Below are positions 54,022 through 64,000 of a stretch of 64,000 bases of DNA, piece by piece; the stretch's first letter is position 1, and every line of letters begins with the position of its first letter. The notes under the pieces were generated by a model. The model made no database searches and was not told the DNA's origin. It saw only the letters and a list, made by a program, of their open reading frames with translations. The DNA comes from Roseibium sp. MMSF_3412. Lineage in GTDB: Bacteria; Pseudomonadota; Alphaproteobacteria; Rhizobiales; Stappiaceae. The translations under genes and the position numbers were made by a program. The stretch covers positions 186,001 through 250,000 of the forward strand of contig NZ_JASHJI010000002.1 in the NCBI RefSeq assembly GCF_030733265.1, written 5' to 3'.

Positions 54022-54094
54022 ACATGCAGATCCTTTCGAGCGAGTTTCTAATCAATCAGGCTTGCTCTGTCAGGCGCATAATCGGGAGGTATCG

Positions 54095-56197
54095 ATGCTG
54101 AACTCTGCTGCGGGATCACGGCTGCAAAATCTATGGGATGATGACACCGCGCAGCCGATGACGGAAGCCGAGCTGCTGCTCTACCGGTCGAACCTTCTTG
54201 GGTCGGACAAGCGCATCACCAATTATGGCGGTGGCAACACCTCGGCAAAGGCCATGGAGAAGGACCCGCTGACCGGTGAACAGACCGAAATCCTTTGGGT
54301 CAAGGGGTCGGGCGGCGATGTCGGCACCATTAAAATGGATGGCTTCGCAACGCTTTACATGGACAAGCTTCGCGCCTTGAAAAGCCTTTATCGCGGCGTC
54401 GAGTTCGAAGACGAGATGGTGGCTTACCTGCCGCATTGCACCTTCAACCTCAATCCACGCGCCGCCTCCATCGATACGCCTCTTCACGCCTATGTCCCTG
54501 CACGACATGTCGACCACATGCATCCGGACGCCATCATTGCAATTGCCGCGGCAGCCGACAGCAAGGCCATGACGGCGGATGTTTTCGGCGACGACATCGG
54601 CTGGCTGCCCTGGAAGCGCCCCGGTTACGAACTCGGCCTGTGGCTCGAAAAGTTCTGTCTGGAAAACCCCACCGCAAAAGGCGTGGTTCTGGAAAGCCAC
54701 GGCCTGTTCACCTGGGCGGACGACGCCAGGACCTGTTACGAGATCACCATCGACACGATCAACAAGGCGATCGGCTGGTTCGAGCAGAAAACGCTAGGAT
54801 ACAGCGCTTTCGGCGGCGCGAAATGCACTGCCCTGTCACCGTCTGACCGCCGCCGGACTGCCGCTTCTGTGATGCCTGTCATTCGTGGCATGATCAGCGG
54901 CGACCAGCATATGGTCGGTCACTTCGATGACAGCGACGCGGTTCTGGAATTTGTCTGCTCCAACGATATGGAGGCGCTGGCCAGACTTGGGACAAGCTGC
55001 CCGGACCATTTCCTGCGCACGAAGATCCGCCCCCTCGTGGTGGATTTCGACCCGAACACCCCGGATATTGAGAAGGTGCTTGCCGGACTTGGCGGTGAGA
55101 TCGCGCAATACCGGGACGACTACGCGGCCTATTACAAGCGGTGCCGCCGGCCGGACAGCCCGGCGCTCAGAAACCCGAATGCGGTTGTTTATCTCGTTCC
55201 GGGCGTCGGAATGATCACCTTCGCCAAGGACAAGGCGACAGCCCGGATCTCGGCCGAATTCTACACCAACGCCATCAATGTCATGCGCGGCGCATCGAGC
55301 GTCTCGACCTACCGGGGTCTTGAGGAACAGGAGGCGTTCGATATCGAATATTGGCTCCTGGAAGAAGCAAAGCTTCAGCGGATGCCCAAGCCGAAAAGTC
55401 TGGCAGGAAAGATCGCGCTGGTCACGGGCGGCGCCGGGGGAATCGGTTCGGCGACCGCGGAGCGGTTCCTGCGCGAAGGGGCCTGTGTGGTGCTGGCCGA
55501 CATTGACGAGGACGCCCTGTCGGAGACCGTGGATGTTCTTTCAAAGCGGCACTCCACGGATCAGGTTCGATCGGTGGTGATGGATGTGACCAGCGAGGCC
55601 GCAGTCGCGGACAGTTTTGCGCGGGCGGCAATGGAATTCGGCGGGATCGACATTCTGGTTTCCAATGCAGGCATTGCGTCTTCCGCACCAATCGAAGAGA
55701 CGTCGCTGGATCTCTGGAACCGCAACATGTCGATCCTGTCGACAGGCTACTTTCTGGTCTCTCGCGCCGCGTTTCAGCTCATGAAGACGCAAGGAACCGG
55801 CGGTGCGATTATCTTCATCGGGTCCAAGAACGGCCTCGCCGCCTCTCCCGGTGCCAGCGCCTACTGTACGGCCAAGGCATCGGAACTTCATCTTGCCCGC
55901 TGCCTGGCGCTCGAAGGCGCTCCGGACGGCATCCGCGTCAACACCGTCAATCCGGACGCCGTCCTGCGCGGATCGAAAATCTGGTCGGGCGACTGGCTGA
56001 AGGAACGGGCAGAAGCCTATGGCAAGGACACGGCGGAGCTCGAGGAGCACTATCGCCAGCGTTCCTTGCTGAAGCGCTCGGTGCTGCCGGAGGACATTGC
56101 GGAGGCAGCATACTTTTTTGCCTCCGACGTTTCATCCAAATCGACCGGCAACATTCTGAATGTCGATGCCGGCAACGTTCAAGCTTTCACACGCTAG
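54095..56197 (+). CDS. rhaD: Rhamnulose-1-phosphate aldolase / lactaldehyde dehydrogenase fusion
   Basis: 700 aa from ATG 54095, preceded by GGGAGGT. The N-terminal ~420 residues are a class II aldolase domain (ITNYGGGNTSAKAMEKD; zinc-site histidines in HVDHMHPDAI; VVLESHGLFTW). The C-terminal ~270 residues are a short-chain dehydrogenase (VTGGAGGIGSATAERFL, VSNAGIASSAP, catalytic SAYCTAKASE). This fusion is the rhizobial RhaD. It splits rhamnulose-1-phosphate to DHAP and lactaldehyde and oxidises the latter. Confidence 0.94.
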   Translation: MLNSAAGSRLQNLWDDDTAQPMTEAELLLYRSNLLGSDKRITNYGGGNTSAKAMEKDPLTGEQTEILWVKGSGGDVGTIKMDGFATLYMDKLRALKSLYRGVEFEDEMVAYLPHCTFNLNPRAASIDTPLHAYVPARHVDHMHPDAIIAIAAAADSKAMTADVFGDDIGWLPWKRPGYELGLWLEKFCLENPTAKGVVLESHGLFTWADDARTCYEITIDTINKAIGWFEQKTLGYSAFGGAKCTALSPSDRRRTAASVMPVIRGMISGDQHMVGHFDDSDAVLEFVCSNDMEALARLGTSCPDHFLRTKIRPLVVDFDPNTPDIEKVLAGLGGEIAQYRDDYAAYYKRCRRPDSPALRNPNAVVYLVPGVGMITFAKDKATARISAEFYTNAINVMRGASSVSTYRGLEEQEAFDIEYWLLEEAKLQRMPKPKSLAGKIALVTGGAGGIGSATAERFLREGACVVLADIDEDALSETVDVLSKRHSTDQVRSVVMDVTSEAAVADSFARAAMEFGGIDILVSNAGIASSAPIEETSLDLWNRNMSILSTGYFLVSRAAFQLMKTQGTGGAIIFIGSKNGLAASPGASAYCTAKASELHLARCLALEGAPDGIRVNTVNPDAVLRGSKIWSGDWLKERAEAYGKDTAELEEHYRQRSLLKRSVLPEDIAEAAYFFASDVSSKSTGNILNVDAGNVQAFTR

Positions 56198-57493
56198 GTG
56201 ATGGACATGCCCATGATCGACAGCGCGGTGATCGCGCAGGAAAACGACAAACTCATCACGAACCTCCGCCGCGACTATGATGTCCTCGGCGAACAGCTAG
56301 ATCGGCGCGGCGTCGCCATCGACGACATCAAACAGAAAGTGTCCGCCTATGGCGTTGCCATCCCGTCCTGGGGCGTTGGAACGGGCGGAACCCGGTTCGC
56401 AAGGTTTCCCGGTCCGGGAGAGCCCCGCAACATTTTCGACAAGCTCGAGGACTGCTCGGTCATTCACGAGCTGACAGGGGCGACACCGAGTGTGTCCCTG
56501 CACATCCCCTGGGACAAGGCAGACCCGACATTGCTGAAGAACAGGGCGGACGAACTCGGCCTCACCTTCGACGCGATGAACTCCAATACGTTTCAGGATC
56601 AGGAAGACCAGCGCCAGTCCTACAAGTTCGGCTCTCTGTCACATACCGACCCGGCCGTCCGGCAGCAGGCCATAGAACACAATCTGGAATGTATCGAAAT
56701 TGGTGCCGCGATCGGGTCGAAAGCCCTGACCGTGTGGGTTGGCGACGGCTCGAATTTTCCGGGCCAGACCAACTTTACCCGTCAGTTGGAACGCTATCTG
56801 GAAAGTGCCAAGACGATCTATGCACGGCTCCCGGGGGACTGGCGTCTCTTTACCGAACACAAGATCTTTGAGCCAGCCTTCTATTCCACAGTCGTTCAGG
56901 ACTGGGGCACCAACTACCTGATCGCAAATGAGCTTGGTGAACGGGCATTCTGTCTTGTCGATCTCGGACATCATGCCCCAAGCGTGAACATCGAGATGAT
57001 CGTTGCCAGGCTGATCCAGTTCGGCAAGCTCGGCGGTTTCCATTTCAACGACAGCAAATACGGCGATGATGACCTGGATACGGGCAGCATCGATCCCTAT
57101 CGCCTGTTCCTGGTTTTCAACGAACTGGTCGATGCAGAGGCCCGCAATGCGCCGGGCTTCGACCCGGCCCATATGCTGGACCAGTCGCACAATGTCACCG
57201 ACCCGATCGAGAGCCTGATGGTGTCTGCCATGGAAGTGCAGCGGGCCTATGCCCAGGCCCTGATCGTGGATCGCACCGGTTTGGAAGCCGCGCAGGAAAG
57301 CAACGATGCGCTGATGGCGTCTTCAACGCTCAAGCAGGCGTTCCGCACCGATGTGGAACCTATCCTGGCGCTGGCGCGCGCTGAAAAAGGTGCTGCGGTT
57401 GAGCCGGTCTCCGCCTATAGAACGTCCCGGTATCGGGAGACCGTCGCAAAGACCCGTCCCGTTGTTTCCGGTGCTGGCGGCGGCATCGTTTGA
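56198..57493 (+). CDS. rhaI: L-rhamnose isomerase (rhizobial type)
   Basis: 431 aa from GTG 56198, but ATG 56201, 56207 or 56213 are possible; AGGTGA lies 5 nt before 56207. TIM-barrel isomerase with metal-site regions LTFDAMNSNTFQDQE, WRLFTEHKIFEPAFYST, CLVDLGHHAPSVNIEMIV and GFHFNDSKYGDDDLDTGSID. It differs from E. coli RhaA and belongs to the group found beside RhaD fusions. Directly follows rhaD with no gap. Confidence 0.93.
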   Translation: MMDMPMIDSAVIAQENDKLITNLRRDYDVLGEQLDRRGVAIDDIKQKVSAYGVAIPSWGVGTGGTRFARFPGPGEPRNIFDKLEDCSVIHELTGATPSVSLHIPWDKADPTLLKNRADELGLTFDAMNSNTFQDQEDQRQSYKFGSLSHTDPAVRQQAIEHNLECIEIGAAIGSKALTVWVGDGSNFPGQTNFTRQLERYLESAKTIYARLPGDWRLFTEHKIFEPAFYSTVVQDWGTNYLIANELGERAFCLVDLGHHAPSVNIEMIVARLIQFGKLGGFHFNDSKYGDDDLDTGSIDPYRLFLVFNELVDAEARNAPGFDPAHMLDQSHNVTDPIESLMVSAMEVQRAYAQALIVDRTGLEAAQESNDALMASSTLKQAFRTDVEPILALARAEKGAAVEPVSAYRTSRYRETVAKTRPVVSGAGGGIV

Positions 57494-61555: not shown

Positions 61556-62434
61556 CTATTGCTTGAGGGAACCGAGTGTCAGCCCGCGGACCAGTTGCTT
61601 CTGGACCAGCAGGATGAAGAGGAACGCCGGAGCCATCGCAGCCACTCCCAAGGCTGCCATGTTGCCCCAGGCGGTGCCTGTGGATGTGACAAAGCTCGAC
61701 GACACGACCGGCACGGTTTTCAGCCCGGTCTGCGTGAGGGTCAGGACGAAAATGAACTCCGTCCAGGAAAAGATGAAACAAAGAACCGCGGTCGCCGCGA
61801 TGCCGCCCTTGGCCATCGGCAGGATGATGCGGCGGAAGATCTTCCAGCGGCTTGCACCGTCGACGATGGCACTCTCGTCGATCTCTCGCGGAATGTCGTC
61901 GAAGAAGCTCTTCAGCAGGAGCACGGCAAGCGGCAGATTCATCAGCGCATGGATCAGGATGATCCCGGTGTAGGAATCCATCAGGCCGATATCCTTGTAG
62001 ATGAAGAACATCGGGATCGCGACCGCGACCGGCGGCATCATCCGCGTCGACAGGACCCAGGCAACGAAGTGGTGCCGCCCCCGGAAATCCATCCGGCTGA
62101 GCGCATAGGCGGCAAAGGTGGATATCGCGATCGCAAGCGCCGTGGAAAACACGGCGACGACGATTGAATCCCAGAGGCGCGGCGCCATGTAGAAATTGCC
62201 GCCACCGGGCAGGACCTCCTGCTGGCGCAGGAAGCCGAAGGAAATGCCGAACACCTCCTCGAAATTCCGGAGCGTCGGCGTGAACGACCAGACTGTCGGG
62301 GGAACCGAGAAGATCTCCTTGGCTTCCTTGAAGGCCGTGGTTCCCCAATAGTAGAGCGGGAACACGAACAGCGCGGTTATCAGCCACGCGGCGGCCATGC
62401 GCGAGTAGCGCCGATATTTGCTCTCGACAATCAC
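61556..62434 (-). CDS. Carbohydrate ABC transporter permease (MalG type)
   Basis: 292 aa from GTG 62434, which overlaps the upstream permease stop (GTGA). Six hydrophobic segments are expected, starting AAAWLITALFVFPLYYWG. The EAA loop is VDGASRWKIFRRIILPMAKG. It ends LVRGLTLGSLKQ, the common CUT1 C-terminus. The open frame upstream lies within the neighbouring permease and is not used. Confidence 0.92.
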   Translation of the reverse strand: MIVESKYRRYSRMAAAWLITALFVFPLYYWGTTAFKEAKEIFSVPPTVWSFTPTLRNFEEVFGISFGFLRQQEVLPGGGNFYMAPRLWDSIVVAVFSTALAIAISTFAAYALSRMDFRGRHHFVAWVLSTRMMPPVAVAIPMFFIYKDIGLMDSYTGIILIHALMNLPLAVLLLKSFFDDIPREIDESAIVDGASRWKIFRRIILPMAKGGIAATAVLCFIFSWTEFIFVLTLTQTGLKTVPVVSSSFVTSTGTAWGNMAALGVAAMAPAFLFILLVQKQLVRGLTLGSLKQ

Positions 62435-63327
62435 CAGCGCACCTTCGCAATCCAGATAAACAGGTTGGCGATCACGAGGATCAGCACGAGGCTGACGAGG
62501 CTCAGCGTCGCTCCATATCCCCACTTGATGAAACTGAATGTCTGCTGCCAGGCGTAGAGCGACAGCGTGTATGTCGACGTTCCAGGGCCGCCGGACGTCA
62601 TCACGAACATGTAGTCGAAGGCCCGGAACAGATCGATACCGCGGATCAGCACAGCCACCGCGATCACCTTGGACATCATCGGCAGCGTGATCCGGCGGAA
62701 CGTCTGGAACGCGGACGCACCGTCCAGCATGGCAGCCTCGTAGGGCTCCTGAGGCAGAGACCGAAGCCCGGCCAGGAAAATCAGGACCATGAACGGTGTC
62801 CATTGCCAGATATCGGCAAGCATCACACCCGCCAGCGCCGTGGAACTTGTCGCCAGGATCGGGTCCTGGCCGCTCAGGATCCCCATGGCTTCCAGAAGAT
62901 AGGTCAGAACGCCGAACTCGGGATCTTCCATCAGCAGGAACATCATGCCGGTGATCGCCGGTGGAATGACCAGCGTCAGCGTGAGAAGGCCGCGCAGCAA
63001 TCCGAACCCGGGTTCGTCGGAATCAAGCAGCAGCGCAATGATCATTCCCAGCACGACCTGGATCGCCAGCAGCACGAAGAAATACGTGAAGGTCACCGAC
63101 AGCGCTTCCCAGAAGCGCGGATCGTTGACGAGCGTGCTCCAGTTCTCCGTGCCCACATAGACCAGACGCCGTTTGAACGGCGCATATTCATGGAACGAGA
63201 GCCAGATATTGTAGAACAGCGGATAGATCGTGAAGACCACGAGCATGGCGACCAGCGGCGCAAGCCACGGCACCGGGCTGTCGCCGGTGATGTAGCCTTG
63301 CAGTCCTCTGGTTCTTACGAACGCCAT
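62431..63327 (-). CDS. Carbohydrate ABC transporter permease (MalF type)
   Basis: 298 aa. Hydrophobic segments include WLAPLVAMLVVFTIYPLFYN and TFTYFFVLLAIQVVLGMIIA. The EAA loop is LDGASAFQTFRRITLPMMSK. Forms the channel with the MalG-type permease. 27 bp downstream of the aldolase gene. Confidence 0.92.
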   Translation of the reverse strand: MAFVRTRGLQGYITGDSPVPWLAPLVAMLVVFTIYPLFYNIWLSFHEYAPFKRRLVYVGTENWSTLVNDPRFWEALSVTFTYFFVLLAIQVVLGMIIALLLDSDEPGFGLLRGLLTLTLVIPPAITGMMFLLMEDPEFGVLTYLLEAMGILSGQDPILATSSTALAGVMLADIWQWTPFMVLIFLAGLRSLPQEPYEAAMLDGASAFQTFRRITLPMMSKVIAVAVLIRGIDLFRAFDYMFVMTSGGPGTSTYTLSLYAWQQTFSFIKWGYGATLSLVSLVLILVIANLFIWIAKVRW

Positions 63328-63354: not shown

Positions 63355-64000
63355 CTATTTCTTGCTGGCCGATGGCTTTTTGGCCGCGGCCGGTTTTTTG
63401 GCAGCAGCGGCTTTTGCCGCCGGTTTCTTTGCGGCAGACGTTCTGGCCGCTGCGGTCTTTGCCGCAGGTTTCTTTGCAGCCGCTGCCTTTGCGGCCGGTT
63501 TCGTGACTGCTGCGCTCTTCGCTGCAGGTTTCCTTGCCGCCGTCGCCTTCGACGCGGGTTTCTTTGCCGCCGCCGTCTTTGCTGCCGGTTTCTTGGCGGC
63601 ACGGGCTTTAGGCTTGGGCTTCTCTTTTCCGGCATCGTCCTGAAGGCCGTAGCCGGCAAAGCCTCGATGCGTGTCGTCTATGGCCGCGTCGCTCAAAAGC
63701 ACAGGACCGCCGATCGCCAGGCTGAGGTAGTACTGCTTGGCGATGGTCTCCAGCTCGATCGCGCGCCACATCGCCTTGGCAAGGGTCTCTCCAATCGCGA
63801 TCATGCCATGGTTAGCGAGCAGGCAGGCCGTCCTGTCGGTCATCGCGTCGATCGCGAGTTCGGACAGCTCCTCCGAACCGAATGTCGCGTAGCCCGCACA
63901 CCGCACATTGTTCCCGCCGAACGCCGCGATCATGTAATGGCAGGACGGGATTTCCTTGCGCGCGATGGCGAGCGTCGTGCAGTAGGTCGGATGCGCATGG
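63355..64000 (-). CDS. Class II aldolase with a histone-H1-like tail, partial
   Basis: About 215 residues are visible; the 5' end lies beyond the right edge. The catalytic domain shows HAHPTYCTTLA (zinc-binding His pair) at 63967-63999 and LLANHGMIAIG (third His), as in fuculose-phosphate aldolases. After GYGLQDDAGKEKPKPKARAA comes an 85-90-residue tail built of AKKPAAK/TAAAKKPA-type repeats, ending KKPSASKK. Such tails are known from bacterial H1-like DNA-binding proteins, not from aldolases. It is the first visible gene of the CUT1 sugar operon. Confidence 0.88.
   Translation of the reverse strand, partial: HAHPTYCTTLAIARKEIPSCHYMIAAFGGNNVRCAGYATFGSEELSELAIDAMTDRTACLLANHGMIAIGETLAKAMWRAIELETIAKQYYLSLAIGGPVLLSDAAIDDTHRGFAGYGLQDDAGKEKPKPKARAAKKPAAKTAAAKKPASKATAARKPAAKSAAVTKPAAKAAAAKKPAAKTAAARTSAAKKPAAKAAAAKKPAAAKKPSASKK

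Follow-up and report, generated by a model that had tools for sequence, protein, structure and literature searches.

We describe here a FucA-type class II aldolase gene of Roseibium sp. MMSF_3412, located at the end of the 64,000-nucleotide stretch of DNA analysed (the window), whose product continues from a conserved catalytic core into a long, basic, alanine-rich C-terminal tail. On balance, we believe that the product is a working aldolase with a disordered polycationic extension, which would have grown in place, been retained by selection and bind polyanions non-specifically.

The gene lies on the minus strand at 63355-64287 (63355-64000 within the window; G000:C22:249355-250287 on the contig) and comprises 310 codons plus the stop. 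The start codon is at C22:250287, 287 bases past the window end, and its ATG overlaps the stop codon of an upstream HAD-family gene. Extension of the contig, suggested in the preliminary description of this DNA as a check of the fusion, recovered the whole gene: the frame ending at 63355 runs unbroken through core and tail, and there is no separate tail gene. In-frame tails occur at the same position in two other genomes of the genus, G042 (72 residues, L011) and G036 (143 residues, L010), which makes chance or a frame error very unlikely; on this evidence and that of the continuous frame, a frame error or a separate gene is rejected. Repeats can mislead short-read assembly, and the genome under study consists of 34 contigs; an assembly, frame or annotation artefact is nevertheless a scarcely credible source of the tail, given its in-frame counterparts in G036 and in G042, the latter a single contig of 6.35 Mb, although the length of the array in our own strain could still be miscounted.

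Assignment of the core is based on several lines of evidence. On the class II aldolase/adducin head profile PF00596 the protein scores 178.4 bits, where 22.2 would suffice, and a Foldseek comparison of the predicted model with E. coli FucA (1fua) gives an E-value of 1.0e-24, a TM-score by target of 0.95 and 45% identity. By alignment to 1fua, the part of the core within the window, up to residue 217, spans 63637-64000 on the minus strand and holds H160 and Y213 (63649-63651), equivalent to H155 and Y209 of FucA. Residues E78, H97, H99, Y118 and H160 are invariant, and Y213 nearly so, in 27 aligned sequences. The equivalents of FucA Glu73, His92, His94, Tyr113, His155 and Tyr209 are all conserved, so that the metal ligands and the catalytic Glu/Tyr pair of FucA-like aldolases are kept. 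His92, His94, Tyr113 and His155 are the further FucA residues of this set; Glu73 and Tyr209 are named in PMC5434028. Judged by its sequence, the protein appears to be a catalytically competent FucA-type class II enzyme. Scores against the profiles for FucA proper fall short of the curated cut-offs (TIGR01086, 199.9 against 400.25; NF005984, 218 against 264), so that any assignment of a substrate is tentative; it is probably a ketose-1-phosphate.

The preliminary description had recognized a fuculose-phosphate-type aldolase in a sugar operon, and this is supported. The neighbours include, immediately downstream, an ABC transporter permease (62431-63327, minus strand), UgpA-like with a score below the curated cut-off; a GGGAGG motif is kept in the short gap between the two genes in our genome and in the six intact-core sister genomes read. 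Besides an ABC transporter, neighbouring genes encode GlpD, a HAD-IIB hydrolase, a second aldolase-like protein, a pair of FGGY kinases and a protein resembling glycerol-1-phosphate dehydrogenase. Past the window end, the glycerol-1-phosphate-dehydrogenase-like gene (L008:5111-6484) adjoins those of the HAD hydrolase and the aldolase, a trio which recurs in several other loci and which may serve some sugar-phosphate pathway; a literature search to name the pathway found no paper. Also past the window end is the second class II aldolase-like protein (L008:11125-12228), of 367 residues, with an extra region outside the aldolase match; the second FGGY kinase sits in the cluster with it. Elsewhere in the window, at 54062-57493, a rhizobial-type rhamnose isomerase and a bifunctional rhamnulose-phosphate aldolase/dehydrogenase are encoded, both scoring above curated cut-offs.

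The tail comprises residues 218-310 (63358-63636, minus strand): 93 residues, where 85-90 had been estimated at first, with a net charge of +27 and a composition (K+R 31%, A 43%, P 11%) which resembles that of AlgP and, as had been claimed, of H1-like proteins. Most of it, at 63358-63594 on the same strand, is an array of decapeptides of the form xKPAAKxAAx with a 30-base period, in which six full units, plus partial ones, were counted from the codon listing; tandem repeat periods of 15, 18, 30 and 60 were detected. In an AlphaFold2 model of the monomer, block means of pLDDT over residues 221-310 are 41-57, while 160 residues, mostly of the core, reach at least 90: the tail is thus predicted to be disordered. 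It is the sole stretch of its kind in a composition scan of the window, and an exact search of the whole genome for KKPAAK-coding sequence gave three matches, all within the aldolase gene, against one for the reversed-pattern control. Third-position GC of the tail (63358-63636) is 0.58, and 0.62 and 0.66 in two relatives, with simulated values of 0.76-0.77 when the codon usage of our own genome is applied to all three species. Codon choice against exact repeats was considered and finds no support, the longest exact repeats lying on no consistent side of the simulation.

The tail is rooted directly after Y213-G-L-Q216, aligned to Y209-G-L-R212 of FucA, and E. coli FucA, of 215 residues, ends about where it begins. 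The fifteen best structure matches are FucA entries with 214-215 residues by sequence and 203-210 in the structure library, a shortfall which would fit a mobile C-terminal end. Tyr209 acts as catalytic acid for epimerisation in the two-subunit active site of FucA, according to PMC5434028, and PDB titles list the FucA mutants R212A and Y113F/Y209F. The root of the tail, just past Y213, lies in this catalytic C-terminal segment, and the tail might consequently act at the active site, drawing in or holding the phosphorylated substrate or product, or acting on the pocket of the neighbouring subunit. Such a position would explain why, among the operon genes tested, the aldolase alone grew a tail. 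We nonetheless regard steering or gating of this kind as rather unlikely: it should need few charges, far fewer than the 23-38 net charges carried by 72-143 residues, and some relatives with similar operons carry almost none (L047, 13 residues, charge -1; L055, 9, +1; L057, 5, 0).

The preliminary description had read the protein as a fusion to an H1-like tail, and of this the in-frame basic tail of such composition stands, while kinship with H1-like proteins is not supported: on the HC2 profile (PF07382, cut-off 40 bits) the whole protein reaches 17.8 bits, its isolated tail 21.6 and the relative with the 143-residue tail 33.6, and the evidence favours growth in place. The corresponding E-values are 0.0039 for our own protein and 5.5e-8 for that relative; an extensin profile matches as well, as expected from composition. 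HC2 is not known as part of an enzyme fusion. Chlamydial H1-like HC2 (PMC2848022) has lysine-rich units varying in number, as in the Roseibium tail. The tail is also like those of AlgP/PhaF of Pseudomonas, for which PMC9239181 reports KPAA/KTAAA-type repeats, predicted as disordered and strongly positive; KPAA-type tandem repeats, predicted disorder and net positive charge are all found in the Roseibium tail. The remainder of the proteins differs, being described as a predicted helical domain in AlgP and a granule-associated protein in PhaF, and being an aldolase in Roseibium. The likeness, drawn from descriptions, would be one of convergence. Capture of the tail from an H1-like gene of the same genome was considered as well and is not supported: searches with the tail protein, with the sequence coding for KKPAAK and with the profile of HC2 matched the aldolase gene only, the HC2 match being below cut-off; these searches, within our own genome, could miss a diverged low-complexity source.

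The genus was represented by 45 genomes, 43 of them with a match, and the seven other orthologues with at least 91% identity were read by eye. Absence from all close relatives, which the preliminary description would have taken as a refutation, is not what was found: the tail is present in G042 and G036, and a 22-residue basic form is found in five sisters. In four of these (G005, G017, G041 and G016) it is the C-terminus of the protein, which in G005 ends KKPKPKRRAPRKPAAKKK; in the fifth, G021, the frame of the core is broken and a similar 22-residue basic end lies in another frame. The orthologue of Labrenzia sp. DG1229 (L022 / L059) has a frame break within the core, with the remainder, including a 22-residue basic end, readable in another frame; this may be either a sequencing error or a young pseudogene. 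Conservation in relatives, which had been proposed as a check, holds for position in the two other long-tailed genomes and fails for length, which is 72, 93 or 143 residues, and 22 in the sisters. Tails are 9-10 residues long, with a charge of +4 or +5, in five more distant members (L016-L020), 20 residues (+6) in L021, 2 residues in Roseibium sediminis (L043), and 2-5 residues in paralogues at 55-59% identity (L023-L036); two paralogues at 46-47% identity (L037 and L038) have 19-residue tails with charges of -3 and -2.

In a tree of upstream, core and downstream DNA from eight loci, the species with long tails group together as a single clade of three, with 100/100 support. From the aldolase start, the permease start is base 747 in intact short-tailed sisters and 897, 960 and 1110 in the long-tailed species. 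The gains, 150, 213 and 363 bases, are all divisible by three and come close to whole numbers of 30-base units. Since one KPAAK motif is already present in the short tail of G005, the simplest account is that the tail grew in place: the long tail would have arisen by in-frame lengthening of the short basic end.

Length variation among close species by near-multiples of the repeat unit is also what would be seen if residues added by slippage were merely tolerated, the tail being neutral, or nearly neutral, low-complexity growth with no function. Comparison of the repeat units, aligned by eye with partial ones omitted (6 units in our strain, 5 in G042 and 10 in G036), argues against this, as their amino acids are conserved despite high synonymous divergence. 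In the same order of genomes, pS between units is 0.63, 0.68 and 0.54, pN/pS is 0.19, 0.15 and 0.24, and pN at unit positions 2-6, 8 and 9 is just 0.04, 0.00 and 0.07. As pS of the core among the three long-tailed species is 0.42-0.53, divergence between units matches or exceeds that between species in two of the three genomes, and is about equal to it in G036. Recent duplication predicts low pS, and relaxed constraint predicts pN close to pS; both are opposed by the data, and the decapeptide pattern is thus most likely old and maintained by selection on amino acids. Recent slippage of the whole array is likewise disfavoured by the synonymous differences. In G036, six exact repeated 15-mers were counted, against a mean of 1.0 in own-codon shuffles (0.049 of the shuffles were as high), a slight excess which lends something to neutral growth and weakly suggests that part of that tail was duplicated more recently.

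Further relatives were collected by a contig scan with six patterns, which included two tail peptides and may thus over-sample tailed proteins, and only the matches listed were considered. Tails of at least 15 residues with a charge of at least +5 were labelled as basic. Among the matches listed, basic tails are carried by 18 of 62 unique proteins with at least 60% identity; the other 44 lack one, which suggests that the tail is dispensable for the basic reaction and is again compatible with neutral growth. Yet of the 23 proteins in this closer set with any tail of at least 15 residues, none has a charge of -3 or below, which neutral growth does not readily explain. Below 60% identity, 4 of the 64 proteins among the matches listed are basic-tailed and one is acidic. 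This comparison leaves out L022, L059, L095, L098 and L099 and merges identical core ends, 126 proteins remaining. Core-only queries gave 22 proteins with an identity of at least 60%, of which 7 were basic-tailed, including our own and three from one genus.

Among the genes compared, the excess of basic ends is peculiar to the aldolase. The last 20 residues have a charge of at least +5 in 24 of 99 aldolases and in none of 120 neighbour genes from 13 families (Fisher p 9e-10, uncorrected for kinship among genes related to each other). An earlier control, at +6 or above, had given 15 of 90 aldolases against 1 of 213 neighbour frames, in a set which included spurious frames. With no neighbour gene as basic at its C-terminus, and with the amino acids of the units conserved, we consider neutral growth improbable. 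Net charge bears also on a further explanation, by which the tail would be a solubility, crowding or turnover device (an entropic bristle, or a control of degradation or assembly) with its charge unused for polyanion binding. Predicted disorder, richness in Ala and Pro and variable length would all suit a bristle. Entropic bristles are, however, often acidic or neutral, and in the closer set net-positive tails outnumber net-negative ones by 47 to 6; we hold this explanation to be quite improbable.

In a tree of 99 cores, 21 proteins among the matches listed are basic-tailed, and the label needs 11 changes, 9 of them forced by well-supported branches (5, 5, 5 and 12 forced changes under four other thresholds); many branches are weak, only 40 of the 96 inner ones being starred, and gains are indistinguishable from losses. 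Duplicates of other rows or broken sequences (L040, L042, L059, L121 and L122), broken or partial ones (L022, L095, L098 and L099) and L115, the core of which equals that of L084, were left out of the tree, and the remote matches L101-L104 were never entered. The longest tails, of at least 40 residues and +12, need 7 changes, against a shuffle mean of 7.8, and thus do not cluster beyond shuffles. Examples of basic tails are those of 62 residues (+23) from a Kiloniellaceae bacterium, 54 (+19) from another genome of that order, 48 (+15) from a Rhodobacteraceae MAG and 32 (+13) from a Granulosicoccaceae MAG; many tailed relatives are metagenome assemblies. L085, an uncultured Rhizobiales MAG whose gene starts from 4001, has a 138-residue tail (+21) rich in Lys, Ala, Thr and Ser, with a different pattern; its long branch makes its placement in the tree unsure. 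The tails of distant lineages share a common composition, rich in K, R, A, P, S and T and poor in acidic and hydrophobic residues, and are unlike in sequence motifs. The aldolase group thus seems, from these comparisons, to have gained or lost basic tails at one position repeatedly. Charge balancing of the core by the tail was considered and set aside (Spearman 0.22, p 0.09).

Composition shared without sequence is expected for non-specific interactions of charge. Together with the large charge, the length and the precedent of AlgP, it favours polyanion binding; the position of the tail fits steering as well. According to the polyanion-binding explanation, a short basic C-terminus would have been lengthened in frame into a disordered polycation of xKPAAKxAAx units, with a charge of about +27 per chain, or about +108 per enzyme if the protein is a tetramer as in FucA. 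Such a tail would most likely bind polyanions non-specifically, whether DNA of the nucleoid, RNA, polyphosphate or an anionic membrane, and binding would set the location of the enzyme or the partners with which it clusters. Electrostatic binding of this sort would be the most economical use of the tail.

Papers on class II aldolases with such tails were not found in the open-licence literature, the match for KPAAK and aldolase being a sea cucumber proteomics study and none concerning a tailed aldolase. The nearest architectural parallel is adducin. In PMC12599920 and PMC4265757, adducin and Drosophila Hts are described as having a class II aldolase-type head and a disordered tail with a phosphoinositide-binding MARCKS-homology region; in Hts the aldolase domain spans residues 110-401 and the basic region 688-717. 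The adducin head, as described in PMC12599920, has lost catalysis and is followed by a neck and a tail, whereas the Roseibium protein keeps the catalytic residues and its tail follows the core directly. A bolder version of polyanion binding, which we put forward as doubtful but possible, is that polycationic tails have evolved time and again beside the active site of this aldolase, and that they tether the enzyme to DNA of the nucleoid, to RNA or to polyphosphate, which it may even sense, as a bacterial counterpart of the step from an aldolase head with a polybasic tail to adducin.

Low-complexity basic tails are easily dismissed as noise, while the one described here shows a pattern of purifying selection. 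Within one group of enzymes, such tails come and go at one position, and none was found among the operon neighbours examined. The natural series of 22, 72, 93 and 143 residues, on enzymes more than 90% identical, lets the role of a polycationic tail be asked, in a bacterial aldolase which has adducin as its animal parallel.
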